Origin: Anaerorhabdus furcosa
GTDB taxonomy: Bacteria; Bacillota_I; Bacilli_A; Erysipelotrichales; Erysipelotrichaceae
Direction: 5' to 3'
Assembly (NCBI RefSeq): GCF_900167375.1
Contig: NZ_FUWY01000001.1
Coordinates: 186,001 to 250,000 of the forward strand
Length of the DNA stretch: 64,000 nt
Shown here: piece by piece, positions 3,098 through 10,806 of the stretch
Numbering within the stretch: the first letter of the stretch is position 1
How the letters are laid out: every line of letters starts with the position of its first letter
Notes under the pieces: model-generated
Database searches by the model: none
What the model was told of the DNA's origin: nothing
What the model saw: only the letters and a program-made list of their open reading frames with translations
Made by a program: the position numbers and the translations under genes

Positions 3098-3784
3098 ATG
3101 TCAGTAACAATTTGTATAATTGACGACAAAGACAATGATCTTAAAAATATTCGAAATGAGATCACGCAACATTGTACTGACTATTTTGATCCTATTATTA
3201 AATTGGTAAACTCAGTAGATAATCTATCAATGATTACTGATTCAGATGTTTATTTCATTGATATAGATTTACCAAAGTATAATGGATTTGAAATAGCTAA
3301 ATTCATTCTTCAAAAAAATGAAAATAAATTCATCATATTTGTTTCAAATCGAGAAGACTTGGTATTTAACTCATTCGATTTAAATGTATTTTATTTTGTT
3401 AGAAAATCACATCTAGCAAATGATATTGAAAGATGTATCTCAAAGTATTTGCAGACAGTACAAAAATCAAACTACATAATTTTAAATTGTAATCACAATA
3501 CATATCAAATAAATCATAATGAAATCATCTGGATAGAATCAAATGGCAACAATCTATCTATTTACATGCCAAGCTATAATCTAATAGTAAGAAAAACGAT
3601 GAAATCTATTATAAATGAATTAAATAATAAAATTTTCATTAGAATACATCACTCTTACTTGGTAAATAGTGAATATATACATTATGTTCACCAAAATACT
3701 TGCCATCTAAAAAATGGCTTAATACTACCAATTAGCCCCAACCACAAATTAGACCTAAATGTTTTCTTTTCGTCAAGGAGGTAA
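3098..3784 (+). CDS. LytTR-family response regulator (AgrA/ComE-like)
   Basis: 228 residues. Receiver domain at 1-120 with acidic pair Asp9/Asp10 (CIIDD) and phospho-acceptor Asp55 in VYFIDIDLP; a Lys in FVRKSHL closes the site. The LytTR DNA-binding domain spans about 125-225 (IIWIESNGNNLSIY ... FIRIHHSYLVN). ATG 3098 has AAAGGGTGG upstream. The kinase gene begins 5 bases after its stop and its ribosome site lies inside this gene's last codons. This is the arrangement of Agr/Com/Bln-type peptide-sensing systems that control bacteriocins or virulence. Targets probably include the two small secreted-protein genes just downstream; that is inferred from position. Confidence 0.9.
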   Translation: MSVTICIIDDKDNDLKNIRNEITQHCTDYFDPIIKLVNSVDNLSMITDSDVYFIDIDLPKYNGFEIAKFILQKNENKFIIFVSNREDLVFNSFDLNVFYFVRKSHLANDIERCISKYLQTVQKSNYIILNCNHNTYQINHNEIIWIESNGNNLSIYMPSYNLIVRKTMKSIINELNNKIFIRIHHSYLVNSEYIHYVHQNTCHLKNGLILPISPNHKLDLNVFFSSRR

Positions 3785-3789
3785 CATAC

Positions 3790-5028
3790 ATGAACTATAT
3801 AATTGACACCACGATTTATTTATCATTTTTATTTATAATGTTCCGAAAGAAAGATAAAACACATTTAACAATTAGTATTTTATTTTCACTTATATTTTTA
3901 GCATTTCTATTCAAGATTAGCATTTTTGAACTTAATTTTAAAAATGTTACATTTATTATATTAATATACGCAATTATTATAAATTTATCTGATGAAAGTG
4001 ATTTTGAAATTTTTTATACTATGGTTCTATACTTGGTTTTAGGAAACTTAATGAGCCAAATAGTTACTTATTCTTATTACAATTTACAAACCACTTACAA
4101 AAACTTATTGATTTACTTGTTAAATAATTATGCAAATATTTTTATTATTAGTCGCATTTTTATTCTTTTGACTTATCTATTATTAGCACACTTTAGAAAT
4201 AAACATAAAATTAAATTTAGTCTATTAGAGATTTTACCACTATTGATTATAAGTGGAACTTTGCTATTTATATGTGTCTTGCTTTCTAAAATGCTTTTTG
4301 GCCAATGGATTTTAAGTATAGATATACTCATTATAGATATTTTTATTTTATTAATTGTTATTATTGTTAATATTCTATATCATTATTTAGTTCAACATAA
4401 AGAACGAATAAATGAAGTTGAATTCGAAAAAATTATTTTACAAAATAAAATCATTACTCAAAAAAGAATTTGTGAACTTAATGATGAAATAATCCATTTT
4501 AGACATGATATAAAACATTCATTTCGCTATATTGAAGATTTACTACAGATTGGTGATATTTCTACAGCACTAAGTATTGTTAAGAAACAGCATGAACTTC
4601 CTGTTTTAAACTCACATTATGTTATTACTCAATGTCCTCTATTTGACCTGATTATTAATGATTATAAAGATAAGTCAATAGTTGAAAAATTTGATTTTAA
4701 AACGACTGCAAACATTACTTCTGACGTTAATATTGATGCACTTAAATTCAATTCAATACTTTGTAATTGTCTTGATAACGCTTTTGAAAATTGTGGCGTA
4801 GAAGGTTTTATTGAATTATCTGCTGTTATCAATGATTCTTCAATTAATATCAACATAACAAATAGTATTGCAAAAAATATTTTTCCTATTCAAAAAGATA
4901 AAAAATTTCACGGCAAAGGAATTAACAATATTCGTTCCAATATAAATTCATTAAATGGCAATTTTAATATTATATTAGATTCTTTAGCATATACATCAAT
5001 ATCTATTCCTAATTATCCCTCAAAGTAG
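3790..5028 (+). CDS. GHKL-type sensor histidine kinase (AgrC-like)
   Basis: 412 residues. About seven hydrophobic segments fill residues 1-205, as in AgrC/ComD receptors that bind extracellular peptides. A coiled region precedes the H-box, with the phospho-acceptor at His239 in FRHDIKH. The N-box is NSILCNCLDNAFENC around Asn326/Asn330, and the G-box is HGKGINNIRSNI near residue 375. No AgrB/AgrD pair is visible in the window, so the ligand is unknown. Ribosome site AAGGAGGT lies in the end of the response regulator gene. The gene is extremely AT-rich, more so than the mobilization genes to the right. Confidence 0.9.
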   Translation: MNYIIDTTIYLSFLFIMFRKKDKTHLTISILFSLIFLAFLFKISIFELNFKNVTFIILIYAIIINLSDESDFEIFYTMVLYLVLGNLMSQIVTYSYYNLQTTYKNLLIYLLNNYANIFIISRIFILLTYLLLAHFRNKHKIKFSLLEILPLLIISGTLLFICVLLSKMLFGQWILSIDILIIDIFILLIVIIVNILYHYLVQHKERINEVEFEKIILQNKIITQKRICELNDEIIHFRHDIKHSFRYIEDLLQIGDISTALSIVKKQHELPVLNSHYVITQCPLFDLIINDYKDKSIVEKFDFKTTANITSDVNIDALKFNSILCNCLDNAFENCGVEGFIELSAVINDSSININITNSIAKNIFPIQKDKKFHGKGINNIRSNINSLNGNFNIILDSLAYTSISIPNYPSK

Positions 5029-5095: not shown

Positions 5096-5620
5096 ATGAA
5101 ACGTATTTATTTATTACTTGCAATAGCATTATTTGGATTTGGTGTATTTAACGAAAAGGAAATCACCATTGATCCCAATATAAATCAGAATCAAATAGCA
5201 ACAGGAATTACTTCTTTAAATTATAACGATAATCTCGCCTATAATATTGATAATTCTGTGCTCGCTGAGATAAAACTTGAATTTCCTTATTATTGCAGCC
5301 AGCCCACTTATTTCAAAGAGGTAAATAATGGTAACTTTTCAGATATTCCTGGACTAATTACAATTAGAATTAATTTGTATACGAAAATTGGTGTACAAAA
5401 TGAGTCCATTGAGTTGAGGGAATATGTCCTTTTAAAAAAAGATAATATCTTTAGTTTTGATTCTTTAGTAGGTTATCAAAAAATAGATGAAATTGCTGAC
5501 TATAGTATATTTATATCTAACAGTTATTTAGACGAGTTAGCAATACCTGAAAATTTTTCTCTTGAAGAAATTAGAGCCACTCTTGATCAATCAATTTCAT
5601 TTTACAAAATTTCCGAATAA
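5096..5620 (+). CDS. Secreted or membrane-tethered protein, unknown function
   Basis: 174 residues. The N-terminus (MKRIYLLLAIALFGFGVF) is a signal peptide or anchor without a lipobox. The rest is acidic and rich in Asn, Ile and Tyr, with repeated beta-like stretches. I do not recognise a family. AGAGGAGGT is placed ideally before ATG 5096. It follows the kinase by 67 bases and precedes another small secreted gene. It could be an immunity/accessory protein or a regulated exported product; nothing in the sequence decides this. Confidence 0.6.
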   Translation: MKRIYLLLAIALFGFGVFNEKEITIDPNINQNQIATGITSLNYNDNLAYNIDNSVLAEIKLEFPYYCSQPTYFKEVNNGNFSDIPGLITIRINLYTKIGVQNESIELREYVLLKKDNIFSFDSLVGYQKIDEIADYSIFISNSYLDELAIPENFSLEEIRATLDQSISFYKISE

Positions 5621-5682
5621 TTTTCTAACATATAGAATTGCTTGCCACAAAAATTAAAATTATTAGTTATGGAGGTATTCTT

Positions 5683-5979
5683 ATGAAAAAGAAAACAATA
5701 ATTTTAGCAATTTCATTATTCTACATCTTTACATCTGGTTTTTCAACTTTAGCGGAAAGCAGTCAAGAGGCTAGAGTTCCAATTTATTATAATTACAAGA
5801 ATTCATTCTGCTATGCTGGATCAACTGCTCCTGATCTTGTTTCTATACATAATTACTATATTTCCGGTGTATATTGGTCTGGTGCTGTTTATAAAGGCGA
5901 CTGGGTTAGTTCATATACACAAGGGAATGTAACATACAATTGTTATATGTATGCAGGAGAGCTTCATTCAAACTCTTAG
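5683..5979 (+). CDS. Small secreted two-cysteine protein (bacteriocin-like candidate)
   Basis: 98 residues starting at ATG 5683, which has GGAGGT at 5671-5676; an upstream in-frame ATT/TTG extension has no ribosome site. The signal peptide MKKKTIILAISL ... STLA should be cut near residue 24. The mature ~74 residues are very rich in aromatic residues (Tyr, Trp) and Gly/Ser, with exactly two Cys (43 and 87) that could form a disulfide. Size, composition and position behind a LytTR/GHKL system resemble small secreted peptides controlled by such systems, including non-lantibiotic bacteriocins. No double-glycine leader or ABC exporter is nearby. Function is unproven. Confidence 0.55.
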   Translation: MKKKTIILAISLFYIFTSGFSTLAESSQEARVPIYYNYKNSFCYAGSTAPDLVSIHNYYISGVYWSGAVYKGDWVSSYTQGNVTYNCYMYAGELHSNS

Positions 5980-6168: not shown

Positions 6169-7464
6169 TTAACCAAGTTTTTGCTCTTTCATCTTTTGCT
6201 TATATTTATTCTTTCTTTCATGTTTTCCACTATATTTTCTCTTATTAATTACTACATTCGAGTCAAGTTGCACACCAACATCAATAAGACCAGTAATTGC
6301 GCCGATAGTAAGCACCACACCCACTTCATGATTTGTTTTAACTTCATTTGTTCTTTGTTTTCTATCAACTGGAACGAAGTATTCATCTGATTTTTCATCG
6401 CTAATGTTAAACTCTCTTGTTTGCTCATAATTTGATTCATAGTGATAATTGCTTCCTCCATCTGCGTATTTGTAACAATTTGCATCAGATCCTCTGACAT
6501 CAGTTCGATTAATTGGTTTTGTTTGCCAAAGTTTTCTAAACTCATCTCTCGATAATCCGATACCGCTTTCAACAACTGATTGAATTCGCTCTTGCTCAGA
6601 GATACAGCGTAAGGCGTTTTCTCGATTACTTGCTTTAACTGTGGCAGGTACATTTTCATTTGTTCCAAAGTCAGTGGTGTTTCTACTATGTTCTTCTCTT
6701 TCAATTCTTCTAAACTCAAACTCATAATCTAATACCTCTTTTAAGTATTTCCTTTCATGTAATTTATTATCTCTACATTTCATTCCGTTTGGACACGTAT
6801 AGGTAATATATTTATAGTTATCATTATATTTAACTGTATAACCACTTTTTTGCATCTTATCAATAAATTCATTTTTGCTTTGCGCTTCATTCATGCATCT
6901 ATCAATTGCATTCATTAGTTTGAACTTCCAGCTCATCCCTTTTTCAGCAGCTCGATATTCTCGTGGTGACAGCCCCTTCTCTTTGTGAAGTTGGATGGGT
7001 TGTTGAATGCCATACTCGAGGGCTATTCGATCTGATACACGTCTCAACTCTTTTAACGTATGTTTGTTTTGATGGAGCTTGATTCCTGTTTCCATATTTA
7101 CACTATTAATCACAAAGTGATTATGCACATGTTCTCGATCCACATGGGTTGATACAACAACTTCATAGTTGGGATAGAATTCTTGTACCAACTTACAACC
7201 TATCTCATGAACTTGAGAAGGAGTAAGATTTACTCCTTTCTCAAATGACTGAATGGTCATGTAGAATCGAACTCCTGTATCTTTACCATGCATTAGTCGT
7301 GTTCTCTTGAACTCCTGCTGGGCAGTACTCGGATGGCAGTTAATTCCTGTTACTAAATTCCTTCCCTCGTGCATTGACTTTTTCTTTTGCGTACAATACT
7401 TCAGTACTACTCCTACAGCGCTCTCTGTTTGTTTTGATTCACGGATGTATTCTACAATGGGCAT
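6169..7464 (-). CDS. MOBP-type relaxase (mobilization nuclease)
   Basis: 431 residues. The N-terminal ~250 residues are a relaxase/mobilization nuclease domain. The metal-binding histidine motif is His107-x-Asp-xx-His112-x-His114-x-His116 (HVDREHVHNHFVIN), and Tyr23 in LKYCTQKKKS is a likely nicking tyrosine. It would nick oriT and lead the strand in transfer. The C-terminal ~180 residues are polar and less conserved-looking, and in that stretch a second gene (6252-6725) overlaps in another frame. ATG 7464 directly follows the TAA of the MobC-like gene. The 3' end has no clear terminator. Confidence 0.9.
   Translation of the reverse strand: MPIVEYIRESKQTESAVGVVLKYCTQKKKSMHEGRNLVTGINCHPSTAQQEFKRTRLMHGKDTGVRFYMTIQSFEKGVNLTPSQVHEIGCKLVQEFYPNYEVVVSTHVDREHVHNHFVINSVNMETGIKLHQNKHTLKELRRVSDRIALEYGIQQPIQLHKEKGLSPREYRAAEKGMSWKFKLMNAIDRCMNEAQSKNEFIDKMQKSGYTVKYNDNYKYITYTCPNGMKCRDNKLHERKYLKEVLDYEFEFRRIEREEHSRNTTDFGTNENVPATVKASNRENALRCISEQERIQSVVESGIGLSRDEFRKLWQTKPINRTDVRGSDANCYKYADGGSNYHYESNYEQTREFNISDEKSDEYFVPVDRKQRTNEVKTNHEVGVVLTIGAITGLIDVGVQLDSNVVINKRKYSGKHERKNKYKQKMKEQKLG
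6252..6725 (-). CDS. Overlapping MobB-like coiled-coil protein with C-terminal membrane anchor
   Basis: 157 residues read inside the relaxase gene in a different frame. Support for it being real: AAGAGGT eight bases before its ATG, a length well beyond chance in this position, and a coherent protein. It has a Leu/Glu/Gln-rich helical body (MSLSLEELKEKN ... ) with probable coiled coil at about 60-130, and one hydrophobic segment at 133-152 (WVWCLLSAQLLVLLMLVCNL) near the C-terminus. In the ColE1 and RSF1010 mobilization systems, accessory mob genes (mbeB/mobB) also lie wholly inside the relaxase gene, and RSF1010 MobB has a membrane segment. Homology is not claimed; the analogy is architectural. 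Confidence 0.65.
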   Translation of the reverse strand: MSLSLEELKEKNIVETPLTLEQMKMYLPQLKQVIEKTPYAVSLSKSEFNQLLKAVSDYREMSLENFGKQNQLIELMSEDLMQIVTNTQMEEAIITMNQIMSKQESLTLAMKNQMNTSFQLIENKEQMKLKQIMKWVWCLLSAQLLVLLMLVCNLTRM

Positions 7465-7770
7465 TTAGTGTATTCTTTCTTGTAAAGCCACTAAGGTTTC
7501 CAGACACTTGTTCAATGCACTCTGTGTCTCTTGAAGATTCACTACCTCAACTTTATTCATGTTCGCTAGTACTGTTAATTGATTCACGTTATTTCCAATT
7601 TTTTTTAGTTGGATATACGTTTCTTTCAAGTCATCTATTCGAATAACTTTTTTATTCAAACATGATCGTACAATGAAGTCTGTTTTCGTGAGTCCTGCTT
7701 CACATGATAGGTCACAAATCTTTTCAAAGTCTGATTCTGTTGTTTTAAATACTGTTACTTTATTTTTCAT
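7465..7770 (-). CDS. MobC-like relaxosome accessory protein
   Basis: 101 residues. An N-terminal ribbon-helix-helix-like part (KVTVFKTTESDFEKICDLSCEAGLTKTDFIVRSCL) precedes the motif KKIGNNVNQLTVLAN (residues 57-70), typical of MobC proteins that bind oriT and help the relaxase. Stop TAA abuts the relaxase ATG. Directly upstream is a GC-rich, inverted-repeat region that is the best oriT candidate. Good confidence from motif and context. Confidence 0.85.
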   Translation of the reverse strand: MKNKVTVFKTTESDFEKICDLSCEAGLTKTDFIVRSCLNKKVIRIDDLKETYIQLKKIGNNVNQLTVLANMNKVEVVNLQETQSALNKCLETLVALQERIH

Positions 7771-7789
7771 CTTTCCTCTTTCCTATTTT

Positions 7790-7872
7790 TACAGGGGCAC
7801 GGGGAACCCCCGTACTCAAGACTGCGCCGGCGTATAGCCGAGTGCTATGCTTGCCCTTCCAAATGGAAGGTT
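7790..7872. other. Putative oriT
   Basis: This stretch upstream of mobC is far richer in G+C than its surroundings and holds several small inverted repeats: ACGGGG-AAC-CCCCGT (7799-7813), GCGTATAGC/GCTATGC (about 7830-7850), and CCTTCC-AAAT-GGAAGG (7855-7870). Between the last two is CTTGCCCTT, loosely like nic regions of MOBP systems. Position and structure suggest the relaxase/MobC target; the nick position is not determined. Confidence 0.45.
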
Positions 7873-7984
7873 CTTTTAATACTTTAAGGTTAATTGTCTC
7901 AAATAAATTATTTTCTTGAACTAGCCCCTTTTTAGCCCAACACGGCGTCGTTGTTGACGATGGTGACGACGATTAGGGGTATCC

Positions 7985-9580
7985 CTATTCCATCGGCGCA
8001 TCGGCGCCACTGTCGTCCACGAGCGTTAGTTCCAACCACCTTTTCTTTCCTCTACCTTTGCTGAACACAATGTTATTCTTTCGTAATATTTCCACATTTT
8101 TACTTAGTAATGTTGATAATTGATTGGGATAAATCACTAAACCTATTCTGCTACACAACTCATTGGCTGTGTCATTAAACTTCTTTTCTTTGGATATATA
8201 GTTGATTACTTTCGCAATATTTACATCCAAACTTTCATCTTGTTCTTCATCGTAAGCTTCCCATAGAAGTCTCTCATTTTGCTTAATTGTGATACTTCTC
8301 ATCGGAATACTTTTACCTGTTATCATCAACTCTGCTGTATCACTCATGATATTTTCACGATACAGTACCATCATATTATCGGCAGCTGCAGGGATACCAT
8401 TGGTTCCATAGAAGGCTTCAAATGGACTATTCTTTCTGCAATCTTTGACTAAGTGATGAAGCAAGATAATAGCGATATTATTCTCTACTGCAAGCTCTCT
8501 GATTTCGCTTGTTTGTTTATAATCATCTTGGTAGTTTGCTTTTTCATTACTTGAATCTCTTAACTTACCATAGGTATCCACAAAAACTGCGATGAGATTT
8601 GGATATCCTTCCTTCCATTCTTGGATGCACTTATCGAGATGGAAGTAATTCCCTTTTGACCCTATTCTGAATTGAATATCGATATTCTTATCAATACCAA
8701 ATAGATTGAATCGTTCGTCAATATCTTTTTTCATTTTACCTTTAATTTGTTCCCACATTCTTTTGTAAGATTGTGCTGATATTGGTTTTCTATCATCTAC
8801 GTTAGTAAATAGATTTTCCATCGGACATTTCGCTAAAGTTTTCTTTAAGTAATCAACATCTCCATTTTGCATTGGTAATTTTCTCATTGATGATTTTGAT
8901 TTTGTACCTTTTTCTTTGCCTTGATTTTGTGTGAATTCAATTGATTTATTTATACTAATCATCATTGCATTAAAGTTGAAATCTGATTTTTTAAGAGCTA
9001 GAATTTCTCCTTTTCTTAATCCATAATGCCATGCAAGTGTTATGAACAATTTCTCTCTTAATGTCAGAATTATTGAGTTCAATATTTTAATCTCATTAGA
9101 AGTTAATACTCTTTTTTCATTCTTTACTACACTTGGTTTTGGAATAAAATCACATGGATTTACTTTCACAATATTGAGTCGATGTGCTTCTTTGAAGATT
9201 GAATTTAAAGTCATATGTACTTTTTGAGACTGATTAGGATGATTTTTAAGTTCATTCATAATTGCGTTAATATGGGACATGTTGATCTTTTTCATTTGCA
9301 AATCATTGAGTGGCTCACAATGATTTAGTGTTGTTGCATACATTCTTTTAGTATTAGCACTTTTGGTTATCATATTTCTTTCATACCACTGTTTTGAATA
9401 ATCTTTAAACAAAGTTTTATCTGTAAAACATCCAGAGACTTTTGCCTCGAGAACTCTTTTATTGAGTTCTCTTGTATTGTTAGCACATATGTATCTTCTT
9501 TCACTTTTTCCTGTGATAGGATTGAATACTAGAATTGTTGTAGCATATCGACCGTCTGCTCTTTGTTTTCTAGATAACAT
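7985..9580 (-). pseudogene. Chimeric ORF: tyrosine-recombinase N-half fused to RepA-like ATPase C-half
   Basis: 531 codons in one frame, but made of parts of two proteins. Residues 1-~275 match a phage/ICE tyrosine recombinase: AP2-like arm-binding region, SAM-like core-binding domain (TKRMYATTLNHCEPL ... ), then the start of the catalytic domain with Arg189 (HYGLRKGEIL). The expected HxxR box and tyrosine nucleophile never appear. From about 290 onward it resembles the C-terminal part of a RepA/AAA_25 RecA-fold ATPase: LIAVFVDTYGKLRD (Walker B, Asp335), IAIILLHHLVKD and ADNMMVLYR, followed by a winged-helix-like tail. The Walker A half is absent. An in-frame deletion between adjacent int and rep genes (near 8,710-8,750) explains this. 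Recombinase activity is not expected; the ATPase part is also incomplete. Confidence 0.75.
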
Positions 9581-9582
9581 TC

Positions 9583-9792
9583 TTAATAATAATCCTCATC
9601 ATGGATATCAAAGAAGTCTTCATAATACTTCCTGAATATCATTCCACTTTTAGGTAACTGGGAATCATTCAAGTTATACTTTTTCTTGATTTCTCGATAC
9701 TTGCGAGCTGACTGTGTGTAACTAATATCTAGTTCTTCAGCCATCTCAGCAATACTAATAGTTAATTTCTTTTGTTCGTTTGATTTGCTCAT
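9583..9792 (-). CDS. Small HTH protein, excisionase-like
   Basis: 69 residues from ATG 9792, which has GAGAGG seven bases upstream; a longer 79-residue reading from 9822 lacks a ribosome site. LTISIAEMAEELDISYTQSARKYREIKKKYNL looks like a helix-turn-helix of the Xis/MerR-like type, with a basic N-terminus and an acidic C-terminal tail. The stop lies two bases before the recombinase start, so it is co-transcribed with it. In integrative elements such a gene usually encodes the recombination directionality factor or a repressor. The role is inferred from size and position. Confidence 0.6.
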   Translation of the reverse strand: MSKSNEQKKLTISIAEMAEELDISYTQSARKYREIKKKYNLNDSQLPKSGMIFRKYYEDFFDIHDEDYY

Positions 9793-9860
9793 TTCTCTTC
9801 CTCTCTTTCTTTTGAAAGACATTTATGAGATAATATAAATGCCTTGGGAGCAATCCCTGC

Positions 9861-10012: not shown

Positions 10013-10031
10013 TATTTAAGAGGTGATAGTA

Positions 10032-10508
10032 ATGAAATCAGAGAAACAAATCGAAAAAGAAGTTAAAGACTCTTCGATTCAAATTGGCGAGCGAATTAAA
10101 CTCGCAAGACTGCACTATGGTTATACAAAAACTCAGCTAGCAGATCAATTAGGTATTTCTTATAAAAGAATCATCGAATATGAAAACGGTCAATTTAAGC
10201 CTAGAGAAACAACACTAAGAAAAATAGCTAATGTTCTTTCAGTCAACTACTTTTGGTTGACTTCTGGTGCCCTTATTTTCGAACCAGCATGGTTTAGCAC
10301 AAAAACAAGTGATAAAGATACTAAAAACAAGTTGCGAGCTGGAGCATTAGGAATTATTAATCAGATGTCGAGTAAAATGCCCGATCACATTGTCTTTCAA
10401 ATTTCAGATATTATCTTATCTGAAATAAGGAAGCAAATGGATGAGAAGAATGAATCTCAAAATAATGTTCAACTAAACAAACCTAAAATTTCTAAGAAAC
10501 TAAAATAA
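10032..10508 (+). CDS. XRE-family repressor of the integrated element
   Basis: 158 residues from ATG 10,032, with AAGAGG eight bases upstream (the GTG at 10,023 lies inside that site). Residues ~20-80 form the HTH (GERIKLARLHYGYTKTQLADQLGISYKRIIEYENGQ), followed by a short linker and a helical C-terminal segment with a basic end. It is divergent from the xis/int operon and has CGGATAT-type dyads at its own promoter, as for CI/ImmR-like control genes. No metallopeptidase (ImmA) partner is visible. Confidence 0.85.
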   Translation: MKSEKQIEKEVKDSSIQIGERIKLARLHYGYTKTQLADQLGISYKRIIEYENGQFKPRETTLRKIANVLSVNYFWLTSGALIFEPAWFSTKTSDKDTKNKLRAGALGIINQMSSKMPDHIVFQISDIILSEIRKQMDEKNESQNNVQLNKPKISKKLK

Positions 10509-10594
10509 AGGCTCATATATTGAAGTCATCTTTGCCAATAATGGAAATGAATTTTACTTGTTTGCCAATATTTTTGCCAATAATCAATTTGTAT

Positions 10595-10710
10595 TTTTTA
10601 TTTCAAATCAATAATTTTATTCATAAACATCATATTATATCCGAATTTTACGGACGTATACAGAATCGCCGATTTACCGCATTACAAAAGGCTATTTCTA
10701 ACATATTGTA
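10595..10710 (+). repeat. Right att-like repeat (attR candidate)
   Basis: Contains the 22-base block 10,595-10,616 and the 40-base block 10,671-10,710 that recur at 2903-2967. The 54 bases between the blocks are unique to this end and include an ATATCCG...CGGACGTAT dyad. The core overlaps the terminator hairpin of the tRNA operon, whose other arm (TAGAAATAGCC) lies outside the repeat. Confidence 0.7.
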
Positions 10711-10723
10711 GAAATAGCCTTAT
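10687..10723 (-). terminator. Terminator of the Asn-Glu-Lys tRNA operon
   Basis: AAGGCTATTTCTA (10,688-10,700) pairs with TAGAAATAGCCTT (10,709-10,721). Read on the minus strand, downstream of tRNA-Lys, the stem is followed by TTTTGT. The integrated element has replaced or supplied sequence up to this hairpin. Confidence 0.8.
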
Positions 10724-10730
10724 TTTTTAA

Positions 10731-10806
10731 TGGTGACTCCTTGGGGGATCGAACCCCAGACCCACTGATTAAGAGTCAGTTGCTCTACCATCTGAGCTAA
10801 GGAGTC
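10731..10806 (-). tRNA. tRNA-Lys(CTT)
   Basis: 76 bases with encoded CCA. Acceptor GACTCCT/AGGAGTC, D-arm TAGCTCAG...GGTAGAGC, anticodon loop CTCTTAA (anticodon CTT), T-arm GGTTCGATCC. It is the last gene of the tRNA operon, and the element lies 3' of it. Confidence 0.97.

Follow-up and report, generated by a model that had tools for sequence, protein, structure and literature searches.

We describe a single open reading frame in which the first part of an integrase gene is fused to the last part of a repA gene, and we conclude that this fusion very probably arose when an illegitimate deletion struck an integrative mobilizable element (IME) at a tRNA-Lys gene, leaving a catalytically dead product and a locked element. 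The frame lies in a 64,000-nucleotide stretch of the genome of the gut-type bacterium Anaerorhabdus furcosa, referred to here as the window, and sits in a mobilizable element of ~11.2 kb inserted in the 3' end of tRNA-Lys(CTT). The window copy has neither the final quarter of int nor the initial part of repA, and the join is in frame. The fusion and its parts are located as follows.

7985 to 9580, minus strand: int::repA fusion frame, 531 aa (open reading frame list, Pfam, clade-specific HMMs)
8723 to 9580, minus strand: integrase part, comprising the arm-binding and core-binding domains and the N-terminal ~130 aa of the catalytic domain including Arg189 (intA HMM, alignments, model)
7988 to 8731, minus strand: RepA/AAA_25 part, beginning shortly before Walker B and reaching the C-terminal winged helix (RepA HMM, alignment, model)
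8723 to 8731, minus strand: junction, the overlap of the two profile matches at residues 284-286 (KKD), A-rich AAAATGAAAAAAGAT (HMMs)

The frame starts with ATG and runs through 531 codons without an internal stop. The preliminary description had proposed an integrase/RepA chimera in one frame, and profile searches bear this out: clade-specific HMMs built from intact relatives match the fusion at residues 4-286 for the integrase (intA, 231 bits) and 284-518 for RepA (AAA_25, 200 bits), so that the two profiles abut and their overlap places the junction within about three codons. General profiles detect the same two proteins. On the integrase side, Pfam Phage_integrase matches residues 158-286 (profile positions 2-124 of 172, E 4.6e-11) and a PHROG integrase matches residues 17-286 (E 1.6e-40). 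On the RepA side, PHROG DnaB-like helicase families match residues 277-417 and 296-412 (E 1e-6 to 5e-9), while Pfam AAA_25 gives no match to the half-domain and DnaB_C is the only Pfam match there (E 0.0028).

Alignment with intact relatives confirms that the catalytic remainder of both enzymes is missing. The integrase half retains the arm-binding and core-binding domains and the first catalytic arginine (Arg I, Arg189), and stops just before the (H)xxRH...GH...Y module, so the RH..GH..Y set including the catalytic tyrosine is gone. The RepA half starts after Walker A (GAPQKTGKT in relatives), which is lost, and before Walker B, which is kept together with the downstream C-terminal region. 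The boundaries first suggested for the two halves need revision. The integrase had been described as extending through Arg189, which is indeed present (GLRKGE, from residue 187), but the half continues for ~97 residues more and ends in the helix preceding the missing RH motif; RepA had been described as beginning at the Walker B strand, which is indeed kept (AVFVDTYGK, 331), but the half begins ~47 residues earlier. The preliminary claim also hinged on the C-terminal half having no HxxR...Y set, and none was found there. Judging from these motifs, the fusion product should neither recombine nor hydrolyse ATP: it would not cleave or rejoin att sites because it has no RH..Y, and it would have no ATP-driven replication activity because it has no Walker A.

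Comparison with known proteins leads to the same picture. The N-terminal 286 residues match tyrosine recombinases of the Tn1549/Tn916 and lambda types in sequence and predicted fold, but the fusion differs from these in having no RH..GH..Y part and is therefore not an active recombinase. The C-terminal 235 residues match the RepA-like AAA_25 or Prim-Pol-AAA_25 replication proteins that mobilizable elements carry, and the match takes in Walker B, the region of the His motif that comes after it and the C-terminal winged helix; unlike those proteins, the fusion has neither Walker A nor a primase part. An AlphaFold2 model of the fusion, made from a 31-row alignment (pTM 0.45), is mostly of high confidence in the arm-binding and core-binding domains, the incomplete catalytic domain and the C-terminal winged helix (pLDDT mostly 80-98 in the N-domains), whereas the ATPase core is modelled poorly, with 10-residue pLDDT means of 44-89 from residue 291 to 450. 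Foldseek returned lambda Int (1z1b) and Tn1549 Int (6emz) as the best matches of the first part and a weak match to DnaB for the second.

The surroundings of the fusion are those of an element integrated at a tRNA gene, with the following features in the window.

10731 to 10806, minus strand: target gene tRNA-Lys(CTT) (tRNA annotation)
10719 to 10775, no strand: right att repeat in the tRNA-Lys 3' end, 57 bp (repeat comparison)
10532 to 10584, plus strand: three candidate integrase arm sites TTGCCAATA(AT) (repeat search)
10023 to 10508, plus strand: divergent CI-like HTH repressor (HTH_3/HTH_19)
9583 to 9822, minus strand: xis-like gene for a small HTH protein of 79 aa, immediately upstream of int
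7465 to 7770, minus strand: mobC/NikA-like mobilization accessory protein (Pfam NikA-like 7.5e-14, MobC 1.2e-10)
6169 to 7464, minus strand: MobA relaxase (Pfam Relaxase 2.4e-34)
3790 to 5028, plus strand: GHKL histidine kinase, cargo (HATPase_c_5 8.9e-9)
3098 to 3784, plus strand: LytTR response regulator, cargo (domain search; homologue in the relative element L087)

The left att is an exact 57-bp copy at G000:C2:185505-185561, 0.44 kb to the left of the window. A 44-nt repeat (2927-2970/10670-10713) had been considered as the element bounds and was replaced by this exact tRNA-Lys repeat. In 20 kb there are four copies of the 9-mer TTGCCAATA, all in one orientation and within about 200 bp inside the att copies (the fourth copy is 50 bp inside the left att), and these candidate repeats are placed as integrase arm sites would be. 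The xis-like protein, whose stop codon is 2 nt from the int ATG, is 43-51% identical to the xis-like genes upstream of int in three related genomes (G219, G223 and G239), and we infer its function from its position. Downstream of the fusion gene, mobC is followed by mobA. The fusion is separated from mobC by a G+C-rich gap (7771-7984), which is a candidate oriT recognized by reading only. Within mobA, a 157-aa frame with a hydrophobic C-terminus (6252-6725, minus strand, in another frame) has weak profile matches only; it is reminiscent of the overlapping mobB genes known from mobilizable plasmids. The LytTR/GHKL pair and an HTH-TPR regulator have small exported or lipoprotein-like proteins and a C39-like protein as neighbours (5096-5979 and L041:7497-8809), and together these may represent bacteriocin or signalling cargo.

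In a scan of the element, nothing between the att repeats other than the fused, truncated int matched tyrosine recombinases, and a domain search detected no T4SS or conjugation machinery among the scanned ORFs. The element thus has the att direct repeats at the end of a target gene, the relaxase and the accessory mobilization gene of an IME, and it has no functional site-specific recombinase of its own. With tRNA-Lys IMEs such as IME_Sag2603_tRNAlys and CIMEs described previously (PMC5704250) it shares insertion in the tRNA-Lys 3' end, att repeats, a relaxase and tandem arrays containing decayed elements. It differs from an IME in that its own integrase is destroyed and from a strict CIME (PMC5704250) in that mobA and mobC remain, yet integration is lost and attL and attR are kept.

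Intact relatives carrying int and rep as adjacent genes, as anticipated by the preliminary description, were found. Six genomes of one genus (g3: G278, G279, G280, G285, G286 and G297) have the order xis-int-repA in one direction with an int-repA gap of 12-87 bp, and a tRNA-Lys gene is present on the same fetched stretch in 4 of the 6 loci, one of which (L087) also carries LytTR/GHKL genes. In a tree of integrase N-domains, the integrases of these genomes form one clade (support 97/95) with those of the window, G219, G239 and contig C45 of G223. The g3 RepAs are distant relatives of the C-terminal half of the fusion (about 25% identity); closer RepA relatives (Prim-Pol/PriCT/AAA_25 or AAA_25 alone) follow int and precede mobA next to an integrase of another type. 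Adjacency of int followed by rep is general among the relatives, and the exact parental pair of int and repA was not found intact among those examined.

That the RepA half is closest to RepAs accompanying another integrase type could also be explained by a larger deletion across two tandem tRNA-Lys elements, with the 5' part of int derived from one and the 3' part of repA from the other. The site looks like an accretion array, of the kind described for IMEs at tRNA-Lys (PMC5704250), because there is an integrase remnant outside the left att and a degenerate repeat of the right end, and both would suit such an event. We consider this origin rather unlikely since xis-int-repA adjacency is seen in a single element whose integrase belongs to the same clade, so that no tandem is needed. 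The recurrence of the right-end sequence in degenerate form (2903-2970 compared with 10595-10713) itself suggests that the element is composite or tandem and that an inner end has decayed. The remnant directly outside the left att (L041:5152-5441) is the frameshifted C-terminus of another type of tyrosine recombinase; the idea that the missing integrase C-terminus had moved there was rejected, since the HMM assigns the remnant to that other type.

The deletion reading, proposed at the outset as an in-frame loss between adjacent int and rep genes, is well supported by the xis-int-repA relatives and by a sibling element in which such a loss can be followed base by base. In Solobacterium sp. MAG RGIG5676 (G223:C45), the match to an integrase of the same clade, again at a tRNA-Lys site, ends at residue ~196, where the C-terminal ~106 residues of a Mob_Pre (MobV) relaxase follow in frame; alignment shows that this fusion, too, is without (H)xxRH, GH and the catalytic tyrosine. 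It differs from the window fusion in its partner, a relaxase tail, and in its earlier breakpoint. In the sibling G219 (MAG RGIG4449) int and mobV are both intact, with a 258-aa gene between them, and the two elements are 88% identical on the int side and 96% on the mob side. Relative to G219, the G223 fusion is a single deletion of 2435 bp whose ends share the 4-bp TCGC (the size follows from the positions at which the two TCGC copies end, L079:4639 and 2204, read directly from the sequence); the G223 element has an exact att repeat of 50 bp. An assembly artefact, that is, a chimeric join of two loci, is extremely unlikely: although G223 and G219, the genomes used for comparison, are MAGs, the window join is embedded in a contig of 623 kb and flanked as expected, by xis and CI upstream and by mobC and mobA downstream, and a fusion of the same class with 4-bp microhomology occurs in an unrelated assembly.

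According to the deletion model, the event would have removed the 3' part of int and the 5' part of repA and joined the remainders in frame, probably after integration and through short sequence repeats as in G223. No intact copy of the window element was found, and we therefore infer its breakpoints and microhomology; the two halves meet in A-rich sequence. The 531-aa product would be made from the int start and, from its sequence, would at most bind DNA. The element would be locked in the chromosome, as follows from the inability of the product to cleave or rejoin att sites, unless a foreign integrase excised it in trans; the relaxase genes remain. Such a rescue is conceivable by analogy because, in a Streptococcus composite, a tRNA-Lys element excises alone or with its decayed neighbour (PMC5704250).

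The fusion frame is unique in its own genome, where the sole other match is a 32% identical integrase on another contig near a tRNA cluster ending in tRNA-Phe. In 195 relatives, strong matches cover either residues 1-~290 (frames of about 370-410 aa) or ~284-520 (frames of 325-594 aa), never both, and the same either-half pattern is seen in the whole order (316 genomes). Searches found no second int::repA fusion in about 700 relatives' genomes and the sequence collections covered, no close copy in genome_contigs, viral_contigs, plasmids or phages, and no other fusion in the window's integrase family in 395 genomes of the class. From genome_contigs, an alignment search with the integrase half returned nothing beyond the two Solobacterium contigs already known and a single distant match; from viral_contigs it returned two distant matches only. 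Of the integrases in this set, 22 are complete within their contigs; 20 of these are full length as judged from profile coverage and have an intact C-terminal RH..GH..Y region, and the remaining two (window and G223) are both in-frame fusions. The contig of a further related element (L080, G239:C196) ends inside its integrase gene.

The retention of the reading frame raises the question of whether the product is useful. A DNA-binding or interfering (dominant-negative) role is possible because the arm-binding and core-binding domains are predicted to fold, and the fusion could have been kept because these domains, seated on att DNA, would block excision or shut out incoming tRNA-Lys integrases. 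The predicted folding of these domains, the retained start codon and upstream xis coupling, and the fact that both deletion derivatives in the integrase set are in frame would fit such a role; the last point, with a chance of 1/3 for each fusion, is suggestive at most. We nevertheless regard selective retention as very unlikely, given that two in-frame events have a probability of 1/9 by chance, that no close homologue of either fusion was found and that the partial catalytic and ATPase domains would likely destabilize the protein. A literature search found no truncated, dominant-negative tyrosine recombinases. Two independent deletions have joined 5' halves from one integrase family in frame to different downstream genes (repA, mobV), a modest hint that such fusions recur, but the broader proposition that tRNA-Lys elements repeatedly turn their integrase into an in-frame fusion keeping the DNA-binding half, as a lock or an immunity factor against related integrases, strikes us as most improbable.

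We conclude that the fusion is ordinary mobile-element decay of a known kind, with recurrence as its one modest twist. Two independent deletions imply that chimeric proteins will be present in databases and will misdirect annotation, and evidence of retention in further strains, if it were obtained, would make a truncated-integrase lock a testable idea.
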